From: Ferruginibacter paludis
GTDB taxonomy: Bacteria > Bacteroidota > Bacteroidia > Chitinophagales > Chitinophagaceae
Direction: 5' to 3'
Length of the DNA stretch: 64,000 bases
NCBI RefSeq assembly: GCF_030409685.1
Contig: NZ_JAUFQJ010000014.1
Span: forward strand, 1-64,000
Part shown: piece by piece, positions 49,348-64,000 of the stretch
Layout of the letters: every line of letters begins with the position of its first letter
Numbering within the stretch: position 1 is the first letter of the stretch
Program-made: the position numbers and the translations under genes
Notes under the pieces: generated by a model
What the model was told of the DNA's origin: nothing
What the model saw: only the letters and a program-made list of their open reading frames with translations
Databases searched by the model: none

Positions 49348-50832
49348 CTACTTATCACCTGTTAAGGTCCAAACTGATACAGATCCCGCCGGGCAATAAA
49401 ACTCGGCCCAGCCTGTTTCATTGATTGTTATTTCCGCCGCATGTTTTCCCAAAATATCTTTAAATATTTTACCTGCATAGCGCTGGCCTATTTCCATCAT
49501 TTTAGTTCCTTCTTCGCCATTGCTGCATACCACGGCGCAACCATGGTGTTCATCGTCACCCTCTCTCGTCCAGCCGATACAATTAGCATGATCAAAATAA
49601 TCACGCTGCATACCATAGGCATTGTTTACCCTTGCCTGCATCAGTAACTCGATTCCCTCTACCTTATCCAGAAATATTTCATAGTCCTGTCCATCTTTTC
49701 CTTTATCGGTGTAACTGCATCCAACCAGGTCGGGATAAAATATACAGGGATACCCATCCACCCTTAATAAAATAAGTGCATATGCGATCGGTTTAAACCA
49801 GGGTTCTACCGGGGCTTCCAGTGCCTGCAGCGGTTGTGTATCATGATTATCCACCACTGTTACGGCCAGCAACGGGTTGGCCTTTACCAGGCTGTCATCA
49901 AAAATAGTCCGCATATCAAAGTCGCTGCCACTGTTGGATGCATTGTGTAAGTTATGGTGCAGGGCTGCATCAAACAAACTCATATTGCCTTCTGTCATTT
50001 CAATATACTTCAGCAACAGAGGCAATTTGCCTGGTGCCCAGTATTCGCCTACGGCGAATATTTCCTTGCCTGTTTCTTTCCTTAGCCTTACCAGCCATTC
50101 GTTAAAAAATTTGGGCGAAATGTGTTTTACAGCATCCAGCCTTACACCGTCAAATGCCACCATATCATGGTACCATTTTCCCCAACTTGCCAGTTCCTCC
50201 CTTACCGCAGCATTCCTGAATTCAATGTCGCAATACATCAGGTAATCATAATTTCCTTTTTCATCATCCACCATGGCTTCCCAATCACTGCCATGTTCAT
50301 TCAGCAACGAGTAAATAGCGGTTTCGCCCGTCGCATGATTGTAATCTACCCCGGTAAAACAGCGGTAGTCCCATTTAAAAGAAGAATATTGTTCTTTGCG
50401 GCCGGGAAATAAAAATTTGGTATAAGCTTCAATTTCTTCCGGCTCTGCAAGCGGCTGATTCCGGTCTTCTTCATTCACTTTTACCGCCATCACTTTTTCA
50501 GTTTCATCACCACCTGCCTTATGATTGAGCACAACGTCTGCTATCACTTGTATGCCGGCACTTTGTAACGCATTCACTGCAGCCAGGTATTCTTCCTTGT
50601 TCCCGTATTTGGTACGCACAGTACTCTTTTGATCAAACTCCCCGAGGTCGTATAAATCATACACATCATAACCTGTACTGTAACCTCCACCAGCGGCTTT
50701 ATAAGCGGGTGGCAGCCATGCACTGGTTATGCCAAGCTTTGCCATTTCCGGGGCTTTTTCTTTTATCTCTTTCCATAAACTATTATCGGAAGTATACCAG
50801 TGAAAATACTGGATCATGGTGCTGTTTTGCAT
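49348..50832 (-). CDS. Cytoplasmic alpha-amylase (GH13)
   Basis: 494 aa from the ATG at 50832 (MQNSTMIQYFHWY), the normal N-terminus of the intracellular GH13_5 enzymes; the ORF opens 20 codons earlier. The nucleophile D233 (DGVRLDAVKH), acid E263 (AVGEYW) and transition-state D331 (VDNHDTQ) are present. No signal peptide, so it acts on intracellular maltodextrins or glycogen. Ends with a beta-sandwich domain. Single gene convergent with DUF72. Confidence 0.93.
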   Translation of the reverse strand: MQNSTMIQYFHWYTSDNSLWKEIKEKAPEMAKLGITSAWLPPAYKAAGGGYSTGYDVYDLYDLGEFDQKSTVRTKYGNKEEYLAAVNALQSAGIQVIADVVLNHKAGGDETEKVMAVKVNEEDRNQPLAEPEEIEAYTKFLFPGRKEQYSSFKWDYRCFTGVDYNHATGETAIYSLLNEHGSDWEAMVDDEKGNYDYLMYCDIEFRNAAVREELASWGKWYHDMVAFDGVRLDAVKHISPKFFNEWLVRLRKETGKEIFAVGEYWAPGKLPLLLKYIEMTEGNMSLFDAALHHNLHNASNSGSDFDMRTIFDDSLVKANPLLAVTVVDNHDTQPLQALEAPVEPWFKPIAYALILLRVDGYPCIFYPDLVGCSYTDKGKDGQDYEIFLDKVEGIELLMQARVNNAYGMQRDYFDHANCIGWTREGDDEHHGCAVVCSNGEEGTKMMEIGQRYAGKIFKDILGKHAAEITINETGWAEFYCPAGSVSVWTLTGDK

Positions 50833-50987
50833 TGTTGCCGGGGTTTTGCTATGCCTTAAAGCAAAGAATAAGCCATGCGGTAAAACAGTCAATTTGTTTC
50901 AGGTGTAAGCCTTTCATCAATAGTAATACCTGAACAAGCAAGCAATAACCGTAGCATTTTTTCCACAATATTTGCTGAATTAAAGTT

Positions 50988-52079
50988 TTACATCAGCAAC
51001 AGGCTATGCTGACTTGCGGTATGCAGGTTGCGCCATACACGGTTAATTTCTGTTGCAGGGTTGGCAGCCTGCAGACCACAATAAGGATATATTTTATCTA
51101 CTGATTGCCGGGCAATGGCAGCGAGGTTCCTGCTTGCATTGGCTACAGCATTTAATAGTTGTTCCTGGTCCCGCTGTTTCAACAAATGCGCCCGCCATGA
51201 TTGATCAATGGCTGTATAAAAATCATTTCTTGCTGTTTGTAGTACTGTGTGGCCCGTCATCCATCTGTCCAAAGAAAGTGTTATTGCATTTGTTCCATGG
51301 TTAGCCGGCTGGCATAGATCAAAAAAACGCATGGCCATACCCGAACTGTTAACTGCCAGCGTTGCTTCTGCCAGTTGCTGAAACGGATACATGTAAACGG
51401 GCAGCTGCAATGTGGCCGATGCACCTGCAATAATAAAGCTCCGGTTTTTCGGAACCCGCAGTCGCTGTACCCCAAAACTATTGCTGGCCGTAGCAATCAT
51501 ACCTATCGTCTTCCAGGTGGGATGCAGACTTACCTCCTTTCTTAAAAACACAAAGCTTTTTATCACCGGGCTACCATCATTATTTTGCAACAGCTGGTCA
51601 TCTTTTTCTATCACGCAGTTAGCGGTAAAGGCAGTGGCCATAAAAGCGCCCGTGGCGTAGTTCCAATGACCGGTTACTTCATAGGCATCTCCCAAATCTG
51701 TTGCCTTGCCCGTAGCTCTTCCACTACCGGCTAGGCAAACTTGCGGATTTGAAAAAAGTTCTTTCGCCAGCGTGGGATCAAGGAATCCTACAAACCAATT
51801 GGCACCGCTGCAGAGTGTAACTGTCCAGGCTGTGCTGCCGTCTGCCCATGCCAGACCTTCTTCTTTTTGCAGTGCTTCAGGCAATGATAACTGCAGGCCA
51901 CCAAATGTTACCGGTACAAAAAGCTTCAGCCATTTTTGTTGGTGAATAACGGATACCTGCTCCGGATGCAGGTATTGTAATTGTTCCGCCGCCGCAGCAT
52001 ATTCAATGATAGTGCCTGCAACGGCAGCATCAATAAAAGATGCAGGATGAGGTATGGGCAGTGTTTGTATCATCGTCAT
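50988..52079 (-). CDS. Acyl-CoA-dehydrogenase-like flavoprotein in thiamine operon
   Basis: 363 aa from the ATG at 52079, chosen because it overlaps the pnuT stop in ATGA (translational coupling). The fold is the acyl-CoA dehydrogenase type: middle domain with EVTGHWNYATGAFMATAF and flavin-contacting GAFMATA, and a helical C-terminal part. It is closer to flavin-dependent monooxygenases of that superfamily (DszC, HpaB-like) than to true acyl-CoA dehydrogenases, as no clear catalytic Glu base is seen. Lying second in a TPP-riboswitch operon, it may act on thiamine, a thiamine precursor or its breakdown product; this is inference. Confidence 0.8.
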   Translation of the reverse strand: MTMIQTLPIPHPASFIDAAVAGTIIEYAAAAEQLQYLHPEQVSVIHQQKWLKLFVPVTFGGLQLSLPEALQKEEGLAWADGSTAWTVTLCSGANWFVGFLDPTLAKELFSNPQVCLAGSGRATGKATDLGDAYEVTGHWNYATGAFMATAFTANCVIEKDDQLLQNNDGSPVIKSFVFLRKEVSLHPTWKTIGMIATASNSFGVQRLRVPKNRSFIIAGASATLQLPVYMYPFQQLAEATLAVNSSGMAMRFFDLCQPANHGTNAITLSLDRWMTGHTVLQTARNDFYTAIDQSWRAHLLKQRDQEQLLNAVANASRNLAAIARQSVDKIYPYCGLQAANPATEINRVWRNLHTASQHSLLLM

Positions 52080-52708
52080 ACTGTAACGGTACTTGTAAAC
52101 TGATTTTCTTTTCTGGCAATTTTTCTCCATTCAATAAATCCCTGTATGGCAACTATAAAAAGAAAAATGGTGAGACCGCTGTACAACAGTAAATGTTTAT
52201 ACAGCAATAATGGAATGGCGAACAGATTGGAGATGTTGAGCAATATCCAGTTTTCAATTTTACGTTTGGCCAGCAGCCACATGCCTGCCCAGGCGGTGGC
52301 ACTTACCCAGGCATCCCACGCCGGCACAGCTGACGGGGTGAAGTTTTTTAAGCTGGAATATAGAGTTGTAAATGCCGCTACCACAATCAACACAACTGTT
52401 CTCCATTCGCTACGGCTGCACCGGCTCACTTCTACGGCCGGCGCATCTTTCTTTTTTATCCAGTACCACCAGCCGTAGATGCTCATCGCCAGGTAATACC
52501 CGTTTAACAATCCTTCAGCATATAATCCTGCCGCAACCAATACATAAATTGAAATAACAGTACTGGCAATACCTGTGGGATACAACCATATTTTATTGGC
52601 TTTGGCATACAAAACTTCTGCTACGCCAAAGGCTACTGCCAGCCATTCCATCAAGGTTGTTTCTTTCATTTGAAGCAGCAGCAATTGCCACCAGTGTTGT
52701 AAATCCAT
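52076..52708 (-). CDS. pnuT: PnuC-family transporter, predicted thiamine transporter PnuT
   Basis: 210 aa with about seven membrane helices and the PnuC-family segment SIYGWWYWIKKK near 90. PnuC proteins carry nicotinamide riboside; those under a TPP riboswitch are PnuT thiamine transporters, which work by facilitated diffusion with phosphorylation trapping. The riboswitch 70 bases upstream supports PnuT. No thiamine kinase is next to it. Its stop codon overlaps the start of the flavoprotein gene. Confidence 0.88.
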   Translation of the reverse strand: MDLQHWWQLLLLQMKETTLMEWLAVAFGVAEVLYAKANKIWLYPTGIASTVISIYVLVAAGLYAEGLLNGYYLAMSIYGWWYWIKKKDAPAVEVSRCSRSEWRTVVLIVVAAFTTLYSSLKNFTPSAVPAWDAWVSATAWAGMWLLAKRKIENWILLNISNLFAIPLLLYKHLLLYSGLTIFLFIVAIQGFIEWRKIARKENQFTSTVTV

Positions 52709-52775
52709 CAGTAATTAATTAAAAACACTTTGCAGGGTGAAACAAAAACAACGGCAATAAATACAAAGTATTAAC

Positions 52776-52925
52776 CTCTTTCCTACGCCGGCATTATCCG
52801 GATCAGGTGCATGAAAAGAAACTGGTTTGTTTAAAAACAGTTTCTTTCAATGGGTATAATCTCAGCCTTTATTTCATCAATTATTATACTGCTGTCAACA
52901 ATTGTAAGGCACCCCTTGAGTGTGG
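52776..52925 (-). promoter_or_regulatory. TPP riboswitch (thi-box)
   Basis: On the minus strand the segments GGGGTGCC, CTGAGATTATACCC, then ACCTGATCCGGATAATGCC and GCGTAGGAA appear in the fixed order and spacing of the thiamine pyrophosphate aptamer, with an enlarged P3 arm. The aptamer ends about 68 bases before the pnuT start. No clear terminator lies in between, so control is more likely at translation initiation. Confidence 0.96.
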
Positions 52926-53070
52926 ATGCAAAGATAGGCTGAAAAGTAATAGCCCTGGTTTGTTCCTTTGCGGAGTTCCCGCTTTTTAAAACGGTTTCAT
53001 TTTTGATTGCTGATATAATTTTTACTACCTTAATCAATGAGTAAACATACTTTCATCCGAAGAATAAATT

Positions 53071-53838
53071 ATGAAAATAGCAACCTATAATGTAAATGGT
53101 GTTAACGGCCGGCTACCCGTTTTACTACGCTGGCTGAAGGAGACTTCTCCGGACGTAGCCTGCCTGCAGGAACTGAAAGCTCCGGATGAAAAATTTCCGC
53201 TGCAGGCTATTAATGATGCCGGCTATGAAGCCATCTGGCATGGGCAAAAAAGCTGGAACGGCGTAGCCATACTCTCCCGCATGGGGAAAATTAAAGAAAT
53301 TCGCCGGGGACTGCCCGGCGATCCGGATGACACCCATAGCCGTTACCTTGAAGCGATTGTAAATGATGTGATCATTGGCTGTCTATACCTGCCCAATGGC
53401 AACCCGGCTCCGGGTCCTAAGTTTGATTATAAATTACGTTGGTTTGAACGATTCACCAAACATGCAGCTGAACTACTGGCTTCGGATAAGCCGGTAGTAC
53501 TCACCGGCGATTACAATGTGATGCCAACCGAACAGGATGTATACAAGCCGGAACGATGGGTGGATGATGCCCTGTTCAGACCAGAAACACGTGCTGCTTT
53601 TAAAAAGCTGGTAGCACAGGGCTGGACAGACGCCATCCGAAAATTATATCCGGACGAAACCATCTATACTTTCTGGGATTATTTCCGCAATGCCTACGGC
53701 CGCAATGCAGGGCTGCGCATAGATCATTTTTTGCTGAGTCCGAAAATTGCCAAACGCCTTACCGCTGCTGGTGTGGACCGCGACGTACGTGGCTGGGAAA
53801 AATCAAGTGACCATGCACCGGTGTGGATTGAATTATAA
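53071..53838 (+). CDS. xth: Exodeoxyribonuclease III
   Basis: 255 aa EEP-fold AP endonuclease and 3' exonuclease in base excision repair. Seen are MKIATYNVNGVNGR, CLQELKAPDEKFP (metal Glu), TGDYNVMPTEQDVY (Asp/Asn pair), RIDHFLLSP and the C-terminal SSDHAPVWIEL (catalytic Asp-His). Length is close to E. coli ExoIII. The gene stands alone, with the DinB gene about 90 bases on. Confidence 0.95.
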   Translation: MKIATYNVNGVNGRLPVLLRWLKETSPDVACLQELKAPDEKFPLQAINDAGYEAIWHGQKSWNGVAILSRMGKIKEIRRGLPGDPDDTHSRYLEAIVNDVIIGCLYLPNGNPAPGPKFDYKLRWFERFTKHAAELLASDKPVVLTGDYNVMPTEQDVYKPERWVDDALFRPETRAAFKKLVAQGWTDAIRKLYPDETIYTFWDYFRNAYGRNAGLRIDHFLLSPKIAKRLTAAGVDRDVRGWEKSSDHAPVWIEL

Positions 53839-53925
53839 AAGCTGTTTAGCAGAACTTCCTGTTGTTTCGGCAATGCTGAGTGCTAAGAAATTTCTTCTAT
53901 CATAAAATAGTAAATAAACATCCTG

Positions 53926-54411
53926 ATGTCCGATCAACAAGTACTTATCATCCAAATGATACTCGACAGCTGGAACCAGCAAATCAGCAAAACCGCCAAC
54001 CTAATAAATAGTCTTACAGATGAGCAGCTGATGCAGGGAGTTGCCCCTGGCCGCAACCGTGGTATTTACCTCTTCGGGCATTTGATAGCTGTGCACGACC
54101 GGATGCTGCCATTGCTAAATTTATCAGAACAATTGTACCCGGAATTAAATGGCCCCTTTCTCGACAAACCAGACAGGGCAGTGGCCACGATTCCGACCGT
54201 TGCAACATTACGGGCTCAATGGAAAACAGTGCATGCAGCACTCGCCATACATTTTGAAAGTATGCGGCCTGAAGGCTGGCTGTTAAAACACAATGCCGTT
54301 TCTGAAGAAGCGTTTGCAAAAGAGCCGCACAGGAACCGGCTGAATGTGATTCTGAACAGAACAAATCATTTGTCGTACCATTACGGGCAACTCGCTTTTC
54401 TAAAAAAATAA
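53926..54411 (+). CDS. DinB family protein
   Basis: 161 aa four-helix bundle. Histidines at the metal-site places: FGHLIAVHDRM near 53, and HLSYHYGQLAFL at the C-terminus. The family holds damage-inducible proteins of unknown role and thiol transferases; substrate not known. It ends 11 bases before the stop of the convergent small gene. Confidence 0.87.
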   Translation: MSDQQVLIIQMILDSWNQQISKTANLINSLTDEQLMQGVAPGRNRGIYLFGHLIAVHDRMLPLLNLSEQLYPELNGPFLDKPDRAVATIPTVATLRAQWKTVHAALAIHFESMRPEGWLLKHNAVSEEAFAKEPHRNRLNVILNRTNHLSYHYGQLAFLKK

Positions 54412-54422
54412 CAGGGTGCGTT

Positions 54423-54620
54423 TTAAATGCCTGCCTCTGCAAATCTTCTAACGGCAATTCTTTTCTTTCTTCGCTGAATGCTCCACAAGTCCACTGTAGT
54501 AAAGGTTCTTCCCTTTGCTCCACTATCAGTGTTTGCAATGGCTTCATGCACTTCTTCCGTAAGTACATTCATGTCTTTTTTGTTTACCGGCACAAATAAA
54601 CCGGGTAGTAGCTTTTTCAT
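54423..54620 (-). CDS. Small conserved-type hypothetical protein
   Basis: 65 aa, strongly basic. It has a plausible composition (FVPVNKKDMNVLTEEVHEAI, then AELWxI-like VDLWSIQRRKKRIAVRRF), a pattern I have seen in short Bacteroidota proteins that lack a name. No signal peptide or domain. A purine-rich ATG context is present; gene likely but not certain. Confidence 0.5.
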   Translation of the reverse strand: MKKLLPGLFVPVNKKDMNVLTEEVHEAIANTDSGAKGRTFTTVDLWSIQRRKKRIAVRRFAEAGI

Positions 54621-55201
54621 AATGATTATTATTTTGCGTTAATTTTTAATTTGCAGCACAAATTTTCTATTGTTTTTTTTGGGTTCAAATAACAAGTGAA
54701 ATGAATTGCTGAAAGCACCTGATGAATTGAGTATAAAAGTGATAGGAAGCGTTCTGCGAAGGGTCTTTCGAAATAAAGATGACCGGTACTTATCTAGATT
54801 TCAGGCTGCAACTGTTCTGTACAAATATGAATTTTAGCAAAACTTTATTCCCTGTAAATTAAGACGATTATAAAGTCATTTTCTTGAATTAATGATGTAA
54901 TGTGTGTAATTTTTGCCACAAAATCACTGTACTTAAACACTGATGTGTTATCGTTATTACATCGCAAGCAACAATAAATAATTGGCATTTATTTTGAAAA
55001 AATCCTATCGCAGTTTACTACTTCATTATTTTTTTACATGAGATTCTTCTGCCTTAATTAAAGGTTTATGTAATCACGTAATGTTTCCGGACAGCACTTA
55101 AACAAATTTCTTGCTGCGTTAATACTGCTGCATTTAACCTGGTGGAGGTATTGAATGAACGGGCAGGTTTTTTGAATACGGCACTTTAAATTATTTTGAT
55201 T
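54621..55201. other. Long AT-rich leader region before the Kai operon
   Basis: 581 bases with no convincing gene. TTTG at 55171-55174 and TATTTTG at 55192-55198, 17 bases apart, lie directly at the kaiC start and would give an almost leaderless mRNA; other promoters further up are possible. The region probably holds the operon control sites. Confidence 0.4.
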
Positions 55202-56929
55202 ATGGCTACAGCATTGTCAACCAAAAAAGATACAAACATTCGCCTGCAAAAAAGCCCCACGGGCATTGCAGGTTTGGATGAAATAACTGAAGGAGGTTTA
55301 CCCAAAGGCAGACCTACATTAATTTGTGGGGAAGCAGGCGCAGGAAAGACGCTTTTTGGTATTGAATTTATAGTGAAAGGCGCCACGCAGTTTAATGAAC
55401 CTGGTGTTTTTGTTGCCTTTGAAGAAAAGTCGGATGAACTTGCGGCCAACGTAGCCTCGCTGGGCTTTGACTTAAAAAAACTGGTGCAGGAAAAAAAGGT
55501 GCGGCTGGATTATGTACACATAGAAAGAAGTGAAATTGAAGAAACGGGCGAGTACGATCTGGATGGACTTTTTATTCGCCTTGGTTATGCGATCGATGCG
55601 ATAAAAGCAAAGAGGGTTGTACTGGACACACTGGAAAATTTATTCAGCAGCCTGAGCAATGAAGCTATTTTAAGAGCTGAATTACGCAGACTGTTTGAGT
55701 GGCTGAAAACAAAAGGTGTTACTGCTATTGTTACAGGTGAAAAAGGCAACAACCAATTGACAAGACAGGGGCTGGAAGAATATGTTTCCGACTGTGTAAT
55801 CCTGCTGGATCACAGGGTACAAAATCAAATTTCTACCCGCCGGTTAAGGGTTATAAAATACCGGGGCAGTATGCATGGTACCAATGAATATCCGTTTTTA
55901 ATCGATAGCAATGGTATTTCAGTTTTACCCGTAACATCACTTACCCTGGAAAATAAAGTGTCCTCCCAACGTGTTTCTACAGGCATCCCGTCACTGGATA
56001 ACATGCTGGGCGGACAAGGATTCTTTAAAGGCAGCAGCATACTGGTATCAGGAACAGCAGGTACGGGTAAAACTAGTATCGCTGCACATTTTGCCAACGC
56101 TGCATGTATGCGCAGTGAGCGCTGCATTTATTTTGCATTTGAAGAATCCCCGGAACAGATCATCCGGAATATGAAATCTATTAATGTAAATCTGGAAAAA
56201 CATGTAAAATCAGGCTTGCTGAAATTTCATGCCAGCAGGCCCACCTTGTATGGTCTTGAAATGCACCTGCTGGTGATTTACAAAACGATACAGGAGTTTA
56301 AGCCAACCACAGTGATACTTGACCCCATTACGAACCTGGTTACTGTTGGTACGGTAAGCGAAATAAAGAGTATGCTGATGAGGCTGATAGATTATTTACA
56401 AAAAGAGCAAATCACCGTTTTGTTTACGGCGCTTACTTTAAATACCATTATCAATGAAAATACGGATGAAGGTGTATCGTCGCTGGTAGATGCCTGGTTA
56501 TTGGTAAGGGATATAGAATTTAACGGGGAAAGAAACCGAGGGATGTATATCATGAAAAGTCGTGGAATGAAACACAGCAACCAGGTACGTGAATTTGTGA
56601 TCAATGACCATGGACTGGAACTGGTAGATGTGTTTCTTGGTCCGGAAGGCGTACTTACAGGCAGTGCAAGAGTAGCGCATCAACTGATGGAAAAAACAGA
56701 AGATGCGTTGAAAGCATTTTCGCTGAACAGGAAGGACCGGGAGATTGAAAGAAAAAGCAGTATGCTGGAAGCAAAAATAAGTGGCCTGCGCAACGAATTT
56801 GAATCGGTAAAAGACGAGCTGAACCGTATATACCAGGAGGAGGAACTGAAGCAGGAAGTGTTGAATCAAAACAGGGAAGCCATGATCAACCTGCGAAAAG
56901 AAAAAGTGCAGCAAAGCACAAAAAAATAG
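55202..56929 (+). CDS. kaiC: KaiC-like double-domain ATPase
   Basis: 575 aa from the ATG at 55202 (a TTG six bases earlier is also in frame). Two RecA-type domains. CI has Walker A GEAGAGKT (43-50) and catalytic E74-E75 (FVAFEEK). CII has GTAGTGKT (284-291) and E314-E315 (YFAFEES). Phospho-acceptor positions match T426, S431 and T432 of cyanobacterial KaiC: here T421, S426 and S427 ([10 protein letters not shown]). The last about 80 residues form a coiled coil ([14 protein letters not shown]) instead of the KaiA-binding tail. Cyanobacterial KaiC is an autokinase/ATPase clock core; timing here is not shown. First gene of a four-gene operon. Confidence 0.94.
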
Positions 56930-56952
56930 TTTTATCACTAATAGAAAATACC

Positions 56953-57240
56953 ATGGAAGAGACCTGGCAATTAAAATTATATGTAGCAGGCAAAACAATA
57001 AAATCAGCTGCAGCTTTAAGCAATCTTAAAAAGTACTGTGAAGAATATTTAAAGGGCAAATACAAAATTGAAGTAATAGACCTTTTGGTAAAACCACAAC
57101 TGGCTGAAGGTGATCAGATATTTGCGGTGCCTACACTGGTAAAAAAAGTACCTGAACCAATCAGGAAGATCATTGGCGATCTTTCAAACAAGGAAAAAGT
57201 TTTAGTGGGACTAAACATTATTCCTGTAAACAAATCATAA
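56953..57240 (+). CDS. kaiB: KaiB-like protein, first copy
   Basis: 95 aa thioredoxin-like protein. The KaiB hallmark [18 protein letters not shown] and [17 protein letters not shown] are close to the cyanobacterial protein, including the prolines of the fold-switch region. In cyanobacteria KaiB binds phosphorylated KaiC after changing its fold. It starts 23 bases after kaiC, and its stop overlaps the next kaiB by one base (TAATG). Confidence 0.93.
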
Positions 57241-57566
57241 TGAAAAAGCAGGAATCAGTTGCAGCGGATGAGTATGAGTTAAGACTATTTGTTACCGGTG
57301 CATCACCCAATTCCGTTAGGGCTATTGCTAACATCAAACGCATTTGCGAGCTATACCTGGCTGGTAATTACAATTTGGAAATTATAGATGTATACCAGCA
57401 ACCATTACTGGCAGAGGAGCAACAATTAATTGCGTTACCGATGCTGTTAAAATCGTCTCCGCTGCCACAAATGCGTTTAATCGGAGACATGAGCGACACA
57501 CAAAAAGTGCTGAAAGGCCTTGGCAAGAACAATGAAACAACAGATGGAATTGAAGAAAACTTATAA
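57240..57566 (+). CDS. kaiB: KaiB-like protein, second copy
   Basis: 108 aa. Same fold as the first copy (LFVTGASPNSVRAIANIKR, QQPLLAEEQQLIALPMLL, MRLIGDMSDTQKVLKGL), but more divergent, with PTL changed to PML and RKIIGD to MRLIGD, plus a short extra tail. It may have a different partner than the first KaiB. Its stop overlaps the histidine kinase start by 35 bases in another frame, so translation is coupled. Confidence 0.92.
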   Translation: MKKQESVAADEYELRLFVTGASPNSVRAIANIKRICELYLAGNYNLEIIDVYQQPLLAEEQQLIALPMLLKSSPLPQMRLIGDMSDTQKVLKGLGKNNETTDGIEENL

Positions 57567-59217
57567 AGAACTTGAAGAGGAACTAGCGAAAATTTCTTTA
57601 CAACTTGAGGAAGCTACGGACAGCATTGAAGCCATCCGCAGCGGGCAAATAGATGCGCTGATAGTGAAGGGAGAAAATGGGAGCCAGATTTACACCGTAA
57701 AAAGTGCAGATCAAACCTATCGCATGTTTATTGAAAAAATGAATGAAGGTGCGCTTACACTCAACATTGATGGTTTAATTTTATATGCCAACTCCCGCTT
57801 TGCTGAAATGGTGGCATTACCTTTATCTAAAGTAATCGGTCATCCCTTCCTACAATTTGTACCGCTGGAATATAAAAAGGTGTTCACCGAGTCAATACAC
57901 AACGGGTGGCAGGCGCATAATAAAGGTGAAATAATCATCACAAGAAGTGATGGTCATTGCATACCTCTTTTGTTTTCGCTCAGCACACTTGAACTGGATG
58001 AAGGCATGGCATTGAATATGATATTGACAGATCTTTCCCTGCAAAAAGAAGGCGAACAGCGGCTAAAAGAAACCAACGAGCAGCTTTTGAAGGCGAACAG
58101 TTATGTAGAAAGAATGAACGACGAACTGGAACTGAAGGTTAAGGAAAGAACAAAAGATTTACTCATCAGCAGGGAGAATTTTAAATTCTTAGCTGACAAT
58201 ATACCGGTGATTGCATGGACTGCTTTGCCGGACGGAACAATCAATTATTTTAACCAGCGGTTCTATGAATATGCCGGCGTAGATGCCAGCGAATTTTTTA
58301 TGAACGACTGGATGCAGGTAATCCATCCTGAAGATAGAGGAAAGACAATTGCGCAATGGCAACATGCCATCAAAACTGGCCAGCCACTGGATATTGAATA
58401 CCGCTTTAAATACGCTCCTGACGACAGTTATCATTGGCATTATGGAAAAGGCCTGCCTTACAAAAATGAAGAAGGACATATCATTGCATGGTTTGGCACT
58501 TCTACGGATATTGAATTGCAGAAAAAAGAGCTGGAACAAAAAGATGAATTTATCAGCATGGTAAGTCATGAATTAAAAACGCCCTTAACCAGCCTCAAAG
58601 GATTTACCCAGCTGTTGATGTTTACTACAAAACAGGATAATAATAACCAGGTAGATGGATACCTGGAAACGATGAATAACCAAATCAATAAACTTACCCG
58701 TTTGATTGCTGACCTGCTCGACATTACTAAGTCGAAGGCCGGAGAATTGCAGTTTGACAATGAACTGTTTGATTTTAATGAACTGGTAAAAGAGGTTGCG
58801 GGGGAAATGCAGTTGACAACCATCAAACATACTATTGCCATTAAGCTCACCACTACCGTTGAGATCAACGGCGACAGAGACCGCATAGGCCAGGTTATTA
58901 CCAACCTTATTTCCAACGCCATTAAATACTCACCGGCGGCGGATAAGATTATTATCAGCACCAGAATTGAAAACAATAAGATCATTTTGTGTGTCCAGGA
59001 TTTCGGGATTGGCATAAGCCGCTTGCAGCAACCCAACTTATACTCCCGTTTTTATCGGGTACTTGACACTTCCGAAGCGCATACCTTTCCAGGGATGGGA
59101 CTGGGATTATACATATCAAAAAATATAATTGAAAAACACATGGGTAAAATGTGGCTTGAAAGTGAACCAGGCAAAGGCGCTAAATTTTATTTTGCCCTGA
59201 TGATTGCCGATAACTAA
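57532..59217 (+). CDS. PAS-domain sensor histidine kinase of the Kai operon
   Basis: 561 aa, no membrane helix or signal, so cytosolic. An N-terminal coiled coil (5-40, with SIEAIRSGQIDALIV), PAS1 (about 60-170), coiled linker (175-213), PAS2 with PAC (about 215-330), HisKA with H346 (SMVSHELKTPL) and HATPase with N box NLISNAIKYS and G boxes DFGIGIS and GMGLGLYI. The start at 57532 is ATG; a TTG 12 bases earlier is in frame. It lacks the KaiB-like domain of cyanobacterial SasA, but is coupled to a separate KaiB. A response regulator is not encoded nearby. Confidence 0.93.
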   Translation: MKQQMELKKTYKELEEELAKISLQLEEATDSIEAIRSGQIDALIVKGENGSQIYTVKSADQTYRMFIEKMNEGALTLNIDGLILYANSRFAEMVALPLSKVIGHPFLQFVPLEYKKVFTESIHNGWQAHNKGEIIITRSDGHCIPLLFSLSTLELDEGMALNMILTDLSLQKEGEQRLKETNEQLLKANSYVERMNDELELKVKERTKDLLISRENFKFLADNIPVIAWTALPDGTINYFNQRFYEYAGVDASEFFMNDWMQVIHPEDRGKTIAQWQHAIKTGQPLDIEYRFKYAPDDSYHWHYGKGLPYKNEEGHIIAWFGTSTDIELQKKELEQKDEFISMVSHELKTPLTSLKGFTQLLMFTTKQDNNNQVDGYLETMNNQINKLTRLIADLLDITKSKAGELQFDNELFDFNELVKEVAGEMQLTTIKHTIAIKLTTTVEINGDRDRIGQVITNLISNAIKYSPAADKIIISTRIENNKIILCVQDFGIGISRLQQPNLYSRFYRVLDTSEAHTFPGMGLGLYISKNIIEKHMGKMWLESEPGKGAKFYFALMIADN

Positions 59218-59324
59218 CAAGCAATAGCGTGAGTTGTAATTACACCTTCAGGTTATATGCTTTGCACCGGTTGGTATTTAACAGCGGTGCTTATTTTCGC
59301 TAAGGCAACGTTTACAAGTTTCAA

Positions 59325-59582
59325 TTATTTACGAATGGCAAGTTTAACTCCCTCTATAAAACTTTCAGCTGTAATTGCAGGGATGCCATGCATTTTATAA
59401 AGCTGACGTAGGCAGCGTTGGCCGGCCACCTCATTATAATTTTTTTGGGCCGCACAGGCGCTTTTACGGATCAGTTTGGCAAACACTGGATAACAGGGTG
59501 CAAGAAGCGACAAGCCGCAATAGTTAATTGAACCAAATACCGCATTGTACAGCAGGGGCTTACTTTGCCTGATACAATTCAT
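59325..59582 (-). other. Open frame overlapping the LacI 3' end, possible gene fragment
   Basis: 85 codons overlapping the last 23 bases of the LacI gene. The composition (VFAKLIRKSACAAQKNYNEV, then GIPAITAESFIEGVKL) looks protein-like and faintly resembles the C-terminus of DHDPS/NanA-type aldolases. I cannot confirm a family. It could be the trimmed remains of a gene once downstream of LacI, or chance. Confidence 0.25.
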
Positions 59583-60597
59583 CAGGCCGCGAGGTAGATT
59601 GCTGTATAACCAGTGAAGCTTTCAGCTGACTGGTACTGATTGTCCCATTATACAGCAAATTACTGAGCAGGTAGCTAACCGCCAATTCTCCAATTTCTTC
59701 AAGGGGTTGCTTAATATAGGTAACAGGTGAATAGAAAAGGTCAAGCATTTCGGTATGGTCAAAACAAATTACTGCCAGGTCGCACGGTACCCGCAACGAA
59801 AGCGAATTAATCAATTTTAAACTACTTGTTGCGATTTTATTTGATCCGAACAAAACGGCATCAACCGCCGGGGTAGCTGAAAGCAGGGCGCGGACAGCAT
59901 CTTCAATTTGCTGTTGGTTATTTTCAATACCAACCAGCTGCAGCCATTCTTTTTCCACCCGCACACCATTGTTTTCTAATGCCCTGATATAACCGTTTTT
60001 TCTTTCCAGTAAATGTTGTAACTCGCTGTCGTAGGTAATCATGCCAATTCTTGTTCGTCCCGTAGATAGTAAATGATGAACAGCTTCCATTGATGCAGCA
60101 AAATTATCAATGATTACATAGCTGGTTTTGATGCCGGGAAAATACCGGTCCAGCAAAACAATCGGAATATCCTTTTGCTGCAGGCTTTCAATCACAGCTT
60201 CTGATTTTGCTGGCGGAGAAAGGATGAGGCCATCTACTTTCCTGTTCAGCATGGTGTGTACCAATTTGTCAAATTTGCCGGGATCTTCATCGGAGCTACC
60301 GAAGATGGTTGTGTACTGGCATTTTTCCGCTTCATCCTCAATAATGCGGGCAAGGTTGGCAGAAAACGGGTTAGAAATATCTGCCACTATAAGCCCAATG
60401 GTATTGGTTTTATTTGTTTTAAGGCTTTTCGCCAGCTGGTTGGTACTGTAATTTAACTGTCCTGCAATATCCCTTATTTTTTGGGCTGTAGCTACGCTAA
60501 TCCTGCCCGAAAGGCGGTTATTTAGCACATATGAAACGAGTGCAGCAGACACACCTGCTTTTGCCGCAATATCCTTTAATGAAACCCTCTTTTGCAT
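59560..60597 (-). CDS. LacI family transcriptional regulator
   Basis: 345 aa. N-terminal LacI HTH (1-50: VSLKDIAAKAGVSAALVSYVLNN, with the hinge KIRDIAGQLNY), then a periplasmic-binding-type effector domain (60-330; GLIVADISNPFSANLAR). Typically controls sugar-use genes and responds to a sugar or its phosphate. It faces the short Gfo/Idh protein across 198 bases that contain two palindromes. No sugar enzymes lie next to it, so its target may be elsewhere. Confidence 0.93.
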   Translation of the reverse strand: MQKRVSLKDIAAKAGVSAALVSYVLNNRLSGRISVATAQKIRDIAGQLNYSTNQLAKSLKTNKTNTIGLIVADISNPFSANLARIIEDEAEKCQYTTIFGSSDEDPGKFDKLVHTMLNRKVDGLILSPPAKSEAVIESLQQKDIPIVLLDRYFPGIKTSYVIIDNFAASMEAVHHLLSTGRTRIGMITYDSELQHLLERKNGYIRALENNGVRVEKEWLQLVGIENNQQQIEDAVRALLSATPAVDAVLFGSNKIATSSLKLINSLSLRVPCDLAVICFDHTEMLDLFYSPVTYIKQPLEEIGELAVSYLLSNLLYNGTISTSQLKASLVIQQSTSRPDELYQAK

Positions 60598-60740
60598 GGT
60601 AATTTGTAAAAGTTATGCAAAGTCAACAACCAGCCGGCTGTTAATTCTACGTTAACCAATGGGCTTTTTTTGAATAAATTAAACTGATAACGAATGGATT
60701 ATGCAAGCAGATGGCAACGGAGCAAGCTGCGTGTTTAATC

Positions 60741-60779
60741 GTTTAAACAAAAGTACGTATCTTTGTGTAATTATTACAC
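60741..60779 (+). promoter_or_regulatory. Promoter with two palindromes, LacI-type operator candidates
   Basis: GTTTAAAC (60741-60748) is followed by the -7 box TATCTTTG (60758-60765). Directly after it lies a perfect 15-base palindrome, GTGTAATTATTACAC (60765-60779), at the likely start of transcription. Both sit where a repressor would block the gene at 60796. Confidence 0.5.
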
Positions 60780-60795
60780 GTTAAACAAATAAATT

Positions 60796-61080
60796 ATGGC
60801 AAACGTAATGAATGTGGGATTGATAGAATGCAGGGATGCAGCCAGGCCTTTTCAATTGGACAGTAAAAACGAATCGAACAATTTCCACATAAAAAAAGTA
60901 TTGGCAAATACCAGCCATTCATTCGCCGCATATTACCCTGATGCAGAATTTGTACAGGACAAAAACGCGATTCTGCAGGATGGGTCAATTGACCTTGTAA
61001 TTATTTCTTCACCTGGTCAGGAAGGAATGCACCTTGTTACTGAAGCCCTTGAAGCCGGTAAAAGTGTAAGGATACTGTAA
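60796..61080 (+). CDS. Half-length Gfo/Idh/MocA-like protein
   Basis: 94 aa. NYH-type start MANVMNVGLIECR, then YPDAEFVQDKNAILQDGSID and LVIISSPGQEGMHLVTEAL, the second half of the Rossmann domain of Gfo/Idh/MocA oxidoreductases; it ends cleanly at GKSVRIL with no catalytic Lys or C-terminal domain. The GxGxxG motif is also absent, so it is unlikely to bind NAD in the usual way. Either a small adaptor-like protein or a truncated gene. It is transcribed away from LacI. Confidence 0.65.
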   Translation: MANVMNVGLIECRDAARPFQLDSKNESNNFHIKKVLANTSHSFAAYYPDAEFVQDKNAILQDGSIDLVIISSPGQEGMHLVTEALEAGKSVRIL

Positions 61081-61295
61081 CACAGTTACACCTTTCCATA
61101 CGATTATTGCTACCAGGTACACTGCTTAGCCGAACGGCCAGGCAGTGTACCCCGATTGTACGCTTGTACACCCTGCATGTGCAGCAGGCTATGTATTGCG
61201 TGTTAAACAATTGAACGATTGTCTGCCTGCAGGCAGTTGCTTAAAGCAGCAGCCGTAAAACAGGGCATTAACATTCATCTTTAAAAACTAAACAA

Positions 61296-61487
61296 ATGAA
61301 AACATTCACCTTAAAACAATTCGTAAGAATAAAAGCAGTATTTACTACCCCGGCTGAACCGGCAGAAAGTAACCCTGCAACCTCCAAAACAGTAAACAAT
61401 CGCAAAACCGCTGCGTTGCATCGAAAAGCCCATATGGGTAACTTCTTTGCAGGTCCGCACTGTGTATTTGACCCAAGGTTGTTTTAA
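61296..61487 (+). CDS. Small basic hypothetical protein
   Basis: 63 aa with no signal or domain, rich in Lys, Thr and Ala (MKTFTLKQFVRIKAVF, ending AGPHCVFDPRLF). A hairpin terminator follows at 61531-61564, and the start is in a purine-rich context, so the ORF may be a real small gene. Confidence 0.4.
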   Translation: MKTFTLKQFVRIKAVFTTPAEPAESNPATSKTVNNRKTAALHRKAHMGNFFAGPHCVFDPRLF

Positions 61488-61530
61488 TACTATCAGAAAG
61501 GAACTTTGTTGAATGATAGCCTATAGACAA

Positions 61531-61564
61531 GCAGGTGCCCCGCCAGTGCAGGGGCCTGTTTGTT
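61531..61564 (+). terminator. Probable terminator
   Basis: Imperfect stem CAGGTGCCCC with GGGGCCTG and a short T-rich tail (GTTTGTTT), 44 bases after the small ORF at 61296. Confidence 0.45.
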
Positions 61565-61945
61565 TACATCTCTGTTTTCTTTGCAGGAAATCCATAACAC
61601 TTATATTCGTCATTAAAACCGCGTCCGTCCTGATGGACAGAAGATGCAGGAATAATAACAAGAGGTTTATCCTGAAGCAAAATCATTTAATCAAATAGCC
61701 GAAGCTGTTTTAAAAAAGAGCTGTGGCGGTTTCGAAATTTCATCGTTGCAGGCGTACAGGTTAAATCCTGCAAACGCACTACAACCTGTAAATATCAGGG
61801 CACTGCGACAAAAATTCTTTTCAAACCTTTCCTGATTTATGCATACGTATACAAACAAGGTGAAGGGTTAATGAAGTAAACATATAGTTATTGTAAAAAA
61901 GAGACACGGAAAATCCTGTATATTATTTAGTAAAACTAAACAGCC
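61565..61945. other. Intergenic region, no gene seen
   Basis: 381 bases between convergent genes; ORFs here have no start, signal or likely composition. Confidence 0.5.
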
Positions 61946-62938
61946 TTATTTATTATTTTTAGCCTTTAGTTTTTTTTCAACCACATCCGCCGGGTACTTC
62001 AACGCCAGCTGTCGTATCTCATAGCTGAATTCTGTGAATGTTTCCTCCCATAATTTCGCTTCTTCCGGCGTATAGTTATAAAAGCCGTGCGCATTGGCAA
62101 CTCCTTTGCCGCCTTCCCGTACAATTTTATCAATGAGTTCCGGCACTTCGGTACCGTTGTGTAAGGTTGGAAAAAGATCTTTCATTACGGTATGATATGC
62201 CGGCACGCCTGTGAGGTCCATCCAGCGAAACACGCCTACCAGCGTCATCCAGTAACCGGTATTATTGCGGCAGGCCCGGTCCACATCTTCCACTGTAGCA
62301 TAGCCATTTTCCACCAGGTTCATAGCTTCCCGGTACATGGCATACATCAGGCGGTTGGTAATAAAACCCCTGATATCTTTTCTTACCAGGGTAGGCTCCT
62401 TACCCCATTGATGCGACAGGTTGTATAAAAATTCAGCCTTTACCGGATCACTTAATTCACCGCAAATAATTTCAAGAAAACGGGTTGTATGAGATGGTTC
62501 TGCCCAATGCAATCCAAAAAAACGCTCCGGATGCAGGGTCAGCTTTTGCAAAATACTGATAGGTATTGCGGATGTATTGCTCGTTAAAATGGCATCGCTG
62601 CCAATAACTGCCTCAATCTTATTGTACACTGATTGTTTGATGATTTCGCTTTCCAGCGTGCATTCAATTACTACCCCGCAATCCTTCAGCAAGCTGTAGT
62701 CTTCCGTGATAATTAATTGCTGCAGGTAATACCCGGGCTGCTGTTTAACTAAGCCATGTTCTACCGAGCGAGTCAAGTGATCCTGAATTCTTTTAGCCGC
62801 ATGTTCAAGATCAGCCGGCAACGGCGCCACCGCAACTACGGGATGCCCGGCCATCAGCAGGCAGGTGGTAATGCTGCAACCCATCAAACCAAGTCCGACT
62901 ACGCCAACGGGAATTTTGGTTGTATCAATTGTTTCCAT
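61946..62938 (-). CDS. 3-hydroxyacyl-CoA dehydrogenase family protein
   Basis: 330 aa. N-terminal Rossmann (VGVVGLGLMGCSITTCLLMAG), then catalytic His in LHWAEPSH with the usual NTSA and ERFFG patterns, and the C-terminal domain with KDIRGFITNRLMYAMYREA. It resembles 3-hydroxybutyryl-CoA dehydrogenase and lambda-crystallin-type members, but the H-W-A-E active site and WMTLVGVFRWMDLTGVPAYH end differ from the classic HFFNP. Substrate is probably a short hydroxyacid or its CoA ester. Single gene. Confidence 0.88.
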   Translation of the reverse strand: METIDTTKIPVGVVGLGLMGCSITTCLLMAGHPVVAVAPLPADLEHAAKRIQDHLTRSVEHGLVKQQPGYYLQQLIITEDYSLLKDCGVVIECTLESEIIKQSVYNKIEAVIGSDAILTSNTSAIPISILQKLTLHPERFFGLHWAEPSHTTRFLEIICGELSDPVKAEFLYNLSHQWGKEPTLVRKDIRGFITNRLMYAMYREAMNLVENGYATVEDVDRACRNNTGYWMTLVGVFRWMDLTGVPAYHTVMKDLFPTLHNGTEVPELIDKIVREGGKGVANAHGFYNYTPEEAKLWEETFTEFSYEIRQLALKYPADVVEKKLKAKNNK

Positions 62939-63005
62939 TTTATTAATTTATCAATGTAAGATGAAAATATTTTGAATTGAATTTTAGCTGGCGTCGCTTC
63001 ATCAC

Positions 63006-63755
63006 TTATCTTCCAAACTCATCGCTATATTCTGCTGCGTACTTTTCGAATCTTTTTATCAGCGTGATGTTTTTTCTTTCTACATCCGTAAGCATGTTTT
63101 TTACCTCAGTTGTAATGGGGATGTACCACTCTTTATTTTCAAATAACTGGCGCAGGTATTTCTTTTTAAAACAATATCCATGTCTTGCAAAAATTTCGTT
63201 GCGCATCTGCTCCAGTTCTTCCGTATTGAAATTGTTTACATCCTCCTCTTTCAGCAGCCGTTGGGAGCCCTGCGGATAGCTACCAACTTCAGTCCTGTAG
63301 ACAAAAGTCCGGCGTTGCAGTGTATATTCTTTCGATCCTGATTCATTTGTCGGCTGGTATGGATCCCAGGTTCCCTTTAACACGCCGGGTGCTTTGTTAT
63401 CGAACGAAAATTTAAATATTCCATCATGCACTTCTTCGCCGGGTTCTTTGGCAATAACAGTAATAACACCATCCTCAGCTGCCATCACGCCTTTAAAAGG
63501 CCGGTCATTACCACCCACAACCGACCTGCCTTCCAGGCTATCGCCGGTAACTTTTGTAATAAGCAATGTAATCATGTTGTCGCCAAAATTTCCGGCATAA
63601 GAACCTATAACGTTTGTGCTTGCCGCAAGCATGGAAGCTTCTGCGCCATCCGGTTCTGCAGCTGATTTCGCATTGATGTTTTTGGACTTACAGGCAAACA
63701 GTAATGCTGCTGTGATAAATAAAAAAATGCTGCAGATTCTTTTCAATCGTATCAT
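63006..63755 (-). CDS. YARHG domain lipoprotein
   Basis: 249 aa from the ATG at 63755 (MIRLKRICSIFLFITAALL), giving a lipoprotein signal with lipobox LLFAC. The YARHG domain fills about 165-240 (EQMRNEIFARHGYCFKKKY, then LRQLFENKEWY). The middle is beta-rich. The domain occurs in extracellular and peptidoglycan-associated proteins of unknown role. Cell-surface or periplasmic anchoring is likely. Confidence 0.88.
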   Translation of the reverse strand: MIRLKRICSIFLFITAALLFACKSKNINAKSAAEPDGAEASMLAASTNVIGSYAGNFGDNMITLLITKVTGDSLEGRSVVGGNDRPFKGVMAAEDGVITVIAKEPGEEVHDGIFKFSFDNKAPGVLKGTWDPYQPTNESGSKEYTLQRRTFVYRTEVGSYPQGSQRLLKEEDVNNFNTEELEQMRNEIFARHGYCFKKKYLRQLFENKEWYIPITTEVKNMLTDVERKNITLIKRFEKYAAEYSDEFGR

Positions 63756-63810
63756 GGCTTTATAGATTTGGGAGCGAATACAAGTGACAGGTATATCCAT
63801 TCCTTACATC

Positions 63811-63845
63811 AATATCCTATTTTTGCGTGTACAAAATAGGATATT
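63811..63845 (+). promoter_or_regulatory. Promoter inside a 13-base inverted repeat
   Basis: AATATCCTATTTT (63811-63823) and AAAATAGGATATT (63833-63845) are perfect inverted arms with a nine-base loop. TATTTTTG (63818-63825) fits the -7 box, so a regulator bound here would block the following gene. Confidence 0.5.
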
Positions 63846-64000
63846 GAAACCAACCTGCAAAAACATACCCGCAAAAATAGCCTTGTTCATGCTGGCGATA
63901 TTTAGCTGGCTGATGCTGAAAATTGTTTTACAATATACATCGCTGGATATAAATGCCGCTTTCTTACAATTGAAACAGGCGTATATTTTAATTGATGTGT
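63844..64000 (+). CDS. N-terminal part of a membrane protein, cut by window end
   Basis: Frame open from a TTG at 63844 (first in-frame ATG at 63889) to the window end: KPTCKNIPAKIALFMLAIFS, then WLMLKIVLQYTSLDINAAFL. A basic start followed by a membrane helix and the -LQYTSLDINAAFLQLKQAY pattern resembles DUF2306-type membrane proteins, but too little is present for certainty. The TTG start is a guess that gives the longer basic N-terminus. Confidence 0.4.
   Translation, partial: MKPTCKNIPAKIALFMLAIFSWLMLKIVLQYTSLDINAAFLQLKQAYILIDV

Follow-up and report, generated by a model that had tools for sequence, protein, structure and literature searches.

A KaiA-less KaiC2 operon in Ferruginibacter paludis and the Kai-linked N-terminal module of its histidine kinase

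Operons in which kaiC and kaiB are followed by a gene for a PAS histidine kinase (PAS/HK) have been described for Rhodopseudomonas palustris and Rhodobacter (Cereibacter) sphaeroides in PMC4794148, and for the latter species also in PMC6627678 and PMC10931921. The KaiBC system of R. sphaeroides is a structurally solved hourglass timer working without KaiA, and a C-terminal extension of its KaiC builds a 12-helix bundle (PMC10076222). Among Bacteroidota, KaiB and KaiC are rarely found according to a paper on Dyadobacter (PMC11573002), and a group of Bacteroidetes possessing only KaiB2 and KaiC2 was reported in PMC5520375, in agreement with the statement of a first-pass annotation of the DNA studied here that KaiBC-only loci exist in other bacteria. 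Possible Kai clocks outside cyanobacteria are considered to need an output pathway unlike that of Synechococcus elongatus, and none is named in the passages of PMC5520375. Here, such an operon is analyzed in a window of 64,000 nucleotides from Ferruginibacter paludis (contig NZ_JAUFQJ010000014.1, positions 1 to 64,000), in which four plus-strand open reading frames, kaiC-kaiB-kaiB-HK, occupy positions 55202-59217 with spacings of 23, -1 and -35 bases, exactly to the base as first annotated. This kind of operon is already known; its new part is a strongly conserved module at the N-terminus of the kinase, which is near-exclusively linked to Kai loci in the genomes sampled. No description of the module or of its Kai linkage was found in the literature searched, which consisted mainly of passages and covered few subscription-journal papers. 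The features of the operon are as follows (aa, amino acids):

55202..56929 (ATG to stop), plus strand: kaiC (KaiC2 or R. sphaeroides type) with CI, CII and C-terminal extension, 575 aa; assigned by Pfam, NF006799 and 8dba
55328..55351, plus strand: CI Walker A motif GEAGAGKT, KaiC aa 43-50; Gly43, Gly46, Gly48, Lys49 and Thr50 each 81/81
55421..55426, plus strand: CI catalytic Glu pair E74-E75 of KaiC, 81/81
56051..56074, plus strand: CII Walker A motif GTAGTGKT, KaiC aa 284-291; Lys290 81/81
56141..56146, plus strand: CII Glu pair E314-E315 of KaiC, 81/81
56477..56482, plus strand: predicted phospho-site pair S426-S427 of KaiC, aligned with S413/S414 of R. sphaeroides
56669..56926, plus strand: C-terminal extension of KaiC, predicted coil region, aa 490-575; 8dba alignment up to aa 548, conserved pattern
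56953..57240, plus strand: kaiB-a, 95 aa; nearest solved relative R. sphaeroides KaiB (8fwj)
57240..57566, plus strand: kaiB-b, 108 aa, distinct paralogue; its start shares one base with the kaiB-a stop
57532..59217 (ATG to stop), plus strand: PAS-PAS-HisKA-HATPase histidine kinase (HK), 561 aa; 35-base overlap with kaiB-b, H-box SHELKTP at aa 345
57571..57765, plus strand: Kai-linked N-terminal module of HK, aa 14-78 (stretch modelled); long helix, beta hairpin, first PAS1 residues
57715..58038, plus strand: PAS1, HK aa 62-169; Pfam, AlphaFold2 model and fold matches
58246..58500, plus strand: PAS2 (PAS_3), HK aa 239-323; Pfam
58537..58743, plus strand: HisKA, HK aa 336-404; Pfam
58870..59199, plus strand: HATPase_c, HK aa 447-556; Pfam

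With the KaiBC system of R. sphaeroides (8dba, 8fwi, 8fwj), the locus shares the C-terminal extension of KaiC, the serine pair, the order kaiC-kaiB-PAS/HK and the lack of KaiA (there according to PMC10076222), and the kinase opens with a recognizable module in both. R. sphaeroides, however, has one KaiB and an HWE kinase, whereas the window encodes two KaiB and a HisKA kinase. The R. palustris operon (PMC4794148) likewise agrees in gene order and PAS kinase and differs by the single KaiB of its printed order. In case of plasmid p3 of Pararhizobium qamdonense, a kaiC-kaiB-kaiB-hybrid kinase operon also combines two KaiB with a module-led kinase, but this kinase ends in a receiver domain and the second KaiB lies outside the KaiB-b group of Bacteroidota. 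The KaiC and KaiB families and a kinase partner are common to the cyanobacterial KaiABC-SasA-RpaA system as well, from which the genome of the window differs in that KaiA was not found, no kinase domain resembles KaiB and KaiC stays under the TIGR02655 cut-off. Hence, the operon qualifies neither as KaiABC clock nor as SasA system. The first-pass annotation had proposed a Kai-based timing or stress-signalling unit; the KaiA-less Kai unit stands, while the published operon type, the coil extension of KaiC and the Kai-linked module had been overlooked.

For comparison, 80 loci were kept as the best 80 of at least 515 confirmed candidates, and kinase statistics are based on 77 of the resulting 81 kinases, since the kinases of L028 and L064 are cut by the contig end, that of L040 reaches the contig end, and that of L080 is split into two frames. 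When the operon kinases are aligned, conservation peaks in the three blocks of 20 residues that make up HK aa 17-76, where the mean share of the commonest residue amounts to 0.74-0.87 compared to 0.69 for the next best block at the H-box. While HK aa 1-61 bears no Pfam name, the conserved block continues into the start of PAS1. For difference and correlation statistics, the module was taken as 60 aa (HK aa 14-73 in the window), a length that takes in the first residues of PAS1. On this basis, module sequences differ by 0.33 on average between pairs, compared to 0.53 for PAS1 and 0.62 for the kinase core, and module and core also differ within single H-box classes (0.33 versus 0.49 for SHELKTP and 0.27 versus 0.49 for SHDLQEP). 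The module motif was detected in 80 of the 81 kinases, L028 being too short, and by profile in 81/81. Module distances correlate with those of KaiB-b (0.58), PAS1 (0.56), KaiC (0.46), KaiB-a (0.35) and the kinase core (0.34); as adjacency confounds these values, no docking partner is claimed from them.

AlphaFold2 predicts a helix (residues 2-37) and a hairpin (42-47 and 50-55) preceding a PAS fold with a mean pLDDT of 88, the confidence being lower, 61-76, across the four blocks of residues 31-70 (76 for 41-50 and 61 for 51-60). A fold search of the PDB with this model gave PAS and LOV domains as top matches, which do not explain the hairpin, and the best hit of a PDB profile search was chance-like (E 0.065). 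No convincing Pfam model was obtained for 23 module rows; LysR_substrate, matching 8 of these with a best E of 4.6e-4, was not believed, the row shown scoring 13 bits against a cut-off of 28. The module copy of R. sphaeroides is 29% identical to that of the window, keeps the invariant columns and is linked to it through intermediate hits. Several kinase classes are fronted by the module, in Bacteroidota and alphaproteobacteria alike, a pattern from which we infer a fixed adaptor ahead of exchangeable signalling parts.

The occurrence of the module was followed in two overlapping samples, one of the phylum Bacteroidota (247 genomes) and one of the class (396 genomes), which have nine module genomes in common and together yield 34 copies in 32 distinct genomes. 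No fewer than 33 of these 34 copies adjoin kaiC, the remaining one lying beside kaiB with a kaiC stub. Specifically, the phylum sample holds 18 copies in 18 genomes, located on the strand of kaiC, 427-777 bp beyond where the KaiC match ends, and the class sample 25 copies in 23 genomes, 24 of which adjoin kaiC at 427-800 bp after the match end. When the phylum sample was searched again with a broader profile, allowing E up to 0.01, its 18 copies were recovered (E <= 2.7e-18) and no further full-length match was found in its 247 genomes; seven partial matches (E 9.7e-4 to 6.1e-3) stem from genomes without a KaiC match, and nothing scores in between. The hypergeometric probability of this association in the phylum sample is 4.8e-21 by genome and 2.7e-8 by genus, values that overstate independence because the genomes are related.

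Conversely, KaiC without a module match occurs in nine genomes of the phylum sample and in G470 of the class sample. In eight of these ten genomes, with KaiC at least 47% identical to that of the window, reading 3-4 kb to either side revealed no module kinase; in G470, another kinase is encoded upstream of kaiC on the opposite strand. The KaiC proteins of G144 and G118 are distant (37% and 29%), and the adjoining kinase-like frames have no module. A response-regulator frame of ~217-270 aa, perhaps representing another output arrangement, is located near several kaiC genes of KaiC2 type that have no module kinase (L101, L106, L126, L129 and L130, in genomes G135, G112 and G173). Three module queries against 72,556 plasmid records yielded 13 records with a match covering at least 80% of the query. 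Precisely these 13, out of 16 plasmid records with kaiC, encode a KaiC 51-57% identical to that of the window; in the other three, KaiC is more distant (35-37%) and no module was matched. Five of the plasmid regions were opened, and the module gene was located inside a kai operon in each.

Regarding the proteins preceding the kinase, KaiC can be assigned from its sequence to the R. sphaeroides kind (KaiC2). Pfam finds the ATPase domain PF06745 twice (E 5.5e-110), and the protein passes the NCBIfam model NF006799 (750.6 bits, cut-off 408) and falls below the KaiC model TIGR02655 (357.7 bits, cut-off 546.25). Its best PDB match is R. sphaeroides 8dba with 643 bits over aa 15-548, C-terminal coil included, and the remaining full-length KaiC structures, R. 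sphaeroides variants apart, reach 331-386 bits. S426 and S427 align with S413 and S414, and the S413E/S414E chain 8fwi accordingly has EE in these columns. Among the 81 KaiC sequences of the window and the 80 loci, both Walker A lysines and both Glu-Glu pairs, as they had been recognized before, are invariant (81/81), as is S427, and S426 is present in 79/81. Thus, two domains, both ATPase sites, the Glu pairs and the Ser-Ser pair of a timer-type KaiC are present as residues, and a C-terminal extension of ~50 aa is homologous in sequence to the R. sphaeroides coil. The nearest named relative, 98% identical, originates from a Ferruginibacter metagenome-assembled genome (L014, among the best 80 kept loci). 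Only one further KaiC match, a weak one (E 5.7e-4), exists in the own genome, and no second one with a high score.

Both small proteins contain the KaiB domain PF07689 (E 7.7e-27 and 3.6e-25), though under the cut-off of the NCBIfam KaiB model (104.3 and 79.5 versus 110), and both are weakly matched by the NCBIfam SasA model (24.0 and 34.7 bits). KaiB-a is nearest in the PDB to R. sphaeroides KaiB (99 bits), whereas KaiB-b scores similarly with 4kso (79.7 bits) and R. sphaeroides KaiB (76.3 bits); the KaiB-like domain of SasA, 6x61, is matched by KaiB-b (E 7.3e-5) and not by KaiB-a. In a tree of 44 KaiB rows, drawn with a midpoint root, a branch with a support of 98/97 separates the 27 rows of type b from the 12 of type a, alphaproteobacterial KaiB being on the a side with the second Pararhizobium KaiB as the outermost row; as the bootstrap is unsettled, depths within the groups are rough. 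KaiB-a and KaiB-b, already annotated as two distinct KaiB, are therefore distinct paralogues on opposite sides of this branch, KaiB-b being more diverged (mean difference 0.45 versus 0.22). KaiA (PF07688) gave no match in the own genome, with S. elongatus as the sole positive of 14 control genomes, so that the check for kaiA called for in the first annotation supports its KaiA-less Kai unit outside cyanobacteria. With KaiB present and KaiA not found, the operon possesses every sequence feature of a KaiC2 timer that was tested.

The kinase comprises PAS, PAS, HisKA and HATPase domains, with no KaiB domain among them according to Pfam, and KaiB-domain matches in the own genome (E <= 0.001) are just the two kaiB genes with no third match. 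Hence, no SasA with a KaiB domain is visible to that search, a SasA-like kinase was rejected as candidate, and the earlier view of a kinase lacking the KaiB-like SasA domain is borne out. Its description as a soluble PAS kinase is reasonable, too, given two PAS domains and a highest 19-residue Kyte-Doolittle mean of 1.22. A LOV motif of the NCRFLQ type (PMC10359499) is absent from the translation as read by eye; LOV structures are still among its fold matches in the PDB. The H-boxes of the 77 operon kinases read SHELKTP (40), SHDLQEP (33) or SHELRTP (4). Scans of three module kinases from alphaproteobacteria gave the HWE type for Rhizobium BG4 and R. sphaeroides, and HisKA combined with a receiver for Pararhizobium.

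A search for response regulators, which the first annotation had likewise called for, returned 113 receiver-domain matches in the genome and none in the window: no receiver is encoded in 50000-64000, and the only two matches on this contig (C7), at 151136 and 267986, are located beyond the window, so that a response regulator gene within it was rejected. In 11 of the 80 loci, all of the SHDLQEP class, the kai kinase is followed after 2-16 bases by the start of a single-domain receiver gene (L025, L032, L036, L039, L047, L062, L069, L083, L086, L088 and L093). In L046, L060, L067, L068, L071, L072 and L091, a receiver gene of 129-145 aa ends 27-143 bases upstream of kaiC on the same strand.

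The order kaiC, kaiB, kaiB, kinase is found in 80/80 kept loci and is therefore not due to chance; the view of the operon as something rare or unusual in its kinship was rejected on the same grounds. As these loci are the nearest ones, the figure describes close relatives. A kai kinase split over two frames at L080:8349-10082 and L096:6973-8455 represents either a broken gene or a sequencing error. At an E value of at most 1e-50, with the best 5 or 3 candidates scored per genome and weaker KaiC uncounted, KaiC is present in 27 of the 247 phylum genomes and 23 of the 396 class genomes. Even within the genus the distribution is patchy, since only 10 of 59 near relatives, own genome included, have KaiC, one of the other nine being 98% and eight being 47-61% identical. 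Complete kai-kinase operons reside on large plasmids in L094 (Pararhizobium plasmid p3), L095, L097 and L098, and those of L094 and L095 were typed as conjugative, which fits the patchy distribution. A scan for sigma-70 promoters and terminators in the window was uninformative (13 promoter-like sites versus 13.5 expected, 6 terminator-like sites versus 4.9 expected), and a Bacteroidota-type promoter pattern matched once, at 2058-2087 and not at the operon, with 3.64 matches expected.

Taking these data together, a KaiA-less KaiC2 phospho-timer which is wired to its own kinase, with the module as reader of the Kai state, is on balance the probable explanation of the operon. By homology to R. 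sphaeroides, for which this cycle is known (PMC10076222), KaiC hexamers joined by their C-terminal coils would autophosphorylate the two serines in a KaiA-free manner, while the return step would be under KaiB control and the state would be set by the ATP/ADP ratio. KaiB-a, as the closest to R. sphaeroides KaiB, would drive this KaiC cycle, whereas the diverged second KaiB, KaiB-b, may tune KaiC or present it to the kinase. The N-terminal helix-hairpin module of the kinase would dock on KaiC or a KaiB and read the Kai state, which the kinase would integrate with signals from its PAS domains before passing phosphate to a response regulator encoded elsewhere. In a heterotrophic bacterium, energy charge rather than light itself would act as the daily or stress cue. 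The module is accordingly read as a Kai-coupling element that may work like the KaiB-like domain of SasA. Whether it even constitutes a general Kai-docking element of non-cyanobacterial KaiC2 timers, that is, a counterpart of the SasA domain of separate origin placed before several kinase classes, is more tentative, and we would put this at slightly below even.

Several observations weigh against this explanation. Association and conservation differ from binding, an operon inherited as a unit would show linkage as well, and the module could have a role in dimerisation of the kinase. Loci with one KaiB exist (R. sphaeroides, G105, G612 and G329), so the second KaiB is dispensable in some, and neither two copies nor a fixed KaiB type are essential everywhere. 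In contig 2 of G536 (L115:1552-3221), a module kinase directly follows a kaiB frame that opens with an N-terminal stub of KaiC; kaiC thus appears to be lost there and kaiB kept, which reflects either an operon that naturally lacks kaiC or an error of the assembly. On the Novosphingobium plasmid pSA1 (L114:5932-6687), a kinase carries the helix half of the module, 27 aa only, and no Kai-like frame was found in the 12 kb fetched. Module kinases are still accompanied by a coil-less KaiC in L111, L117, L118, L120 and L121, which makes docking on the coil alone unlikely and led to rejection of this variant. Beyond Bacteroidota, the specificity of the module was judged from plasmids only. Finally, no timing data for any Bacteroidota KaiC were found in the literature searched.

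Among the alternatives, a stress or energy-state switch survives best, which partly overlaps with the timer explanation and differs from it in use: KaiC and KaiB would sense energy charge and modulate a stress kinase with no timing role. The patchy distribution of KaiC mentioned above (23/396 class genomes) and reports on kai genes of Legionella and Pseudomonas, as cited in PMC11372060 and PMC11832031, are in favor of such a function, which we regard as a serious, if lesser, possibility given that KaiC retains the phospho-sites and the C-terminal extension known from the timer of R. sphaeroides. According to a second alternative, the module does no more than cap PAS1 at its N-terminus or form a helix for dimerisation, its linkage to kaiC resulting from inheritance of the operon as a block. 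The long helix, lower-confidence hairpin and typical PAS fold of the AlphaFold2 model as well as the predominance of PAS and LOV domains among the PDB fold matches would suit this, but the adjoining PAS1 and kinase core diverge more than the module, the same module precedes several kinase classes in two phyla, and the 247 genomes hold no other full-length match at E up to 0.01; overall, it seems unlikely. Somewhat less likely still is an input kinase, in which the PAS domains would sense oxygen, redox or a ligand and the kinase would act on the Kai proteins so that information enters the timer, as has been suggested for the kinase of R. sphaeroides (PMC5520375, PMC10931921) and in line with the PAS domains of HK and a window devoid of receiver domains, because the receiver gene 2-16 bases after the kinase in 11/80 relatives and the receiver within the Pararhizobium kinase point to ordinary phosphotransfer away from the kinase.

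With a module that is nearly confined to Kai loci in the samples, better conserved than the remainder of the kinase and present in the R. sphaeroides operon, the question of output becomes one of a pull-down and a kinase assay. At the same time, the module offers a sequence marker for finding Kai-coupled kinases, and two lasting KaiB paralogues per operon suggest divided roles. The module is a good candidate for the link between KaiC2 timers and the rest of the cell; if the reading as a general docking element is true, it would be the missing connection between timer and cell, already present in R. sphaeroides.

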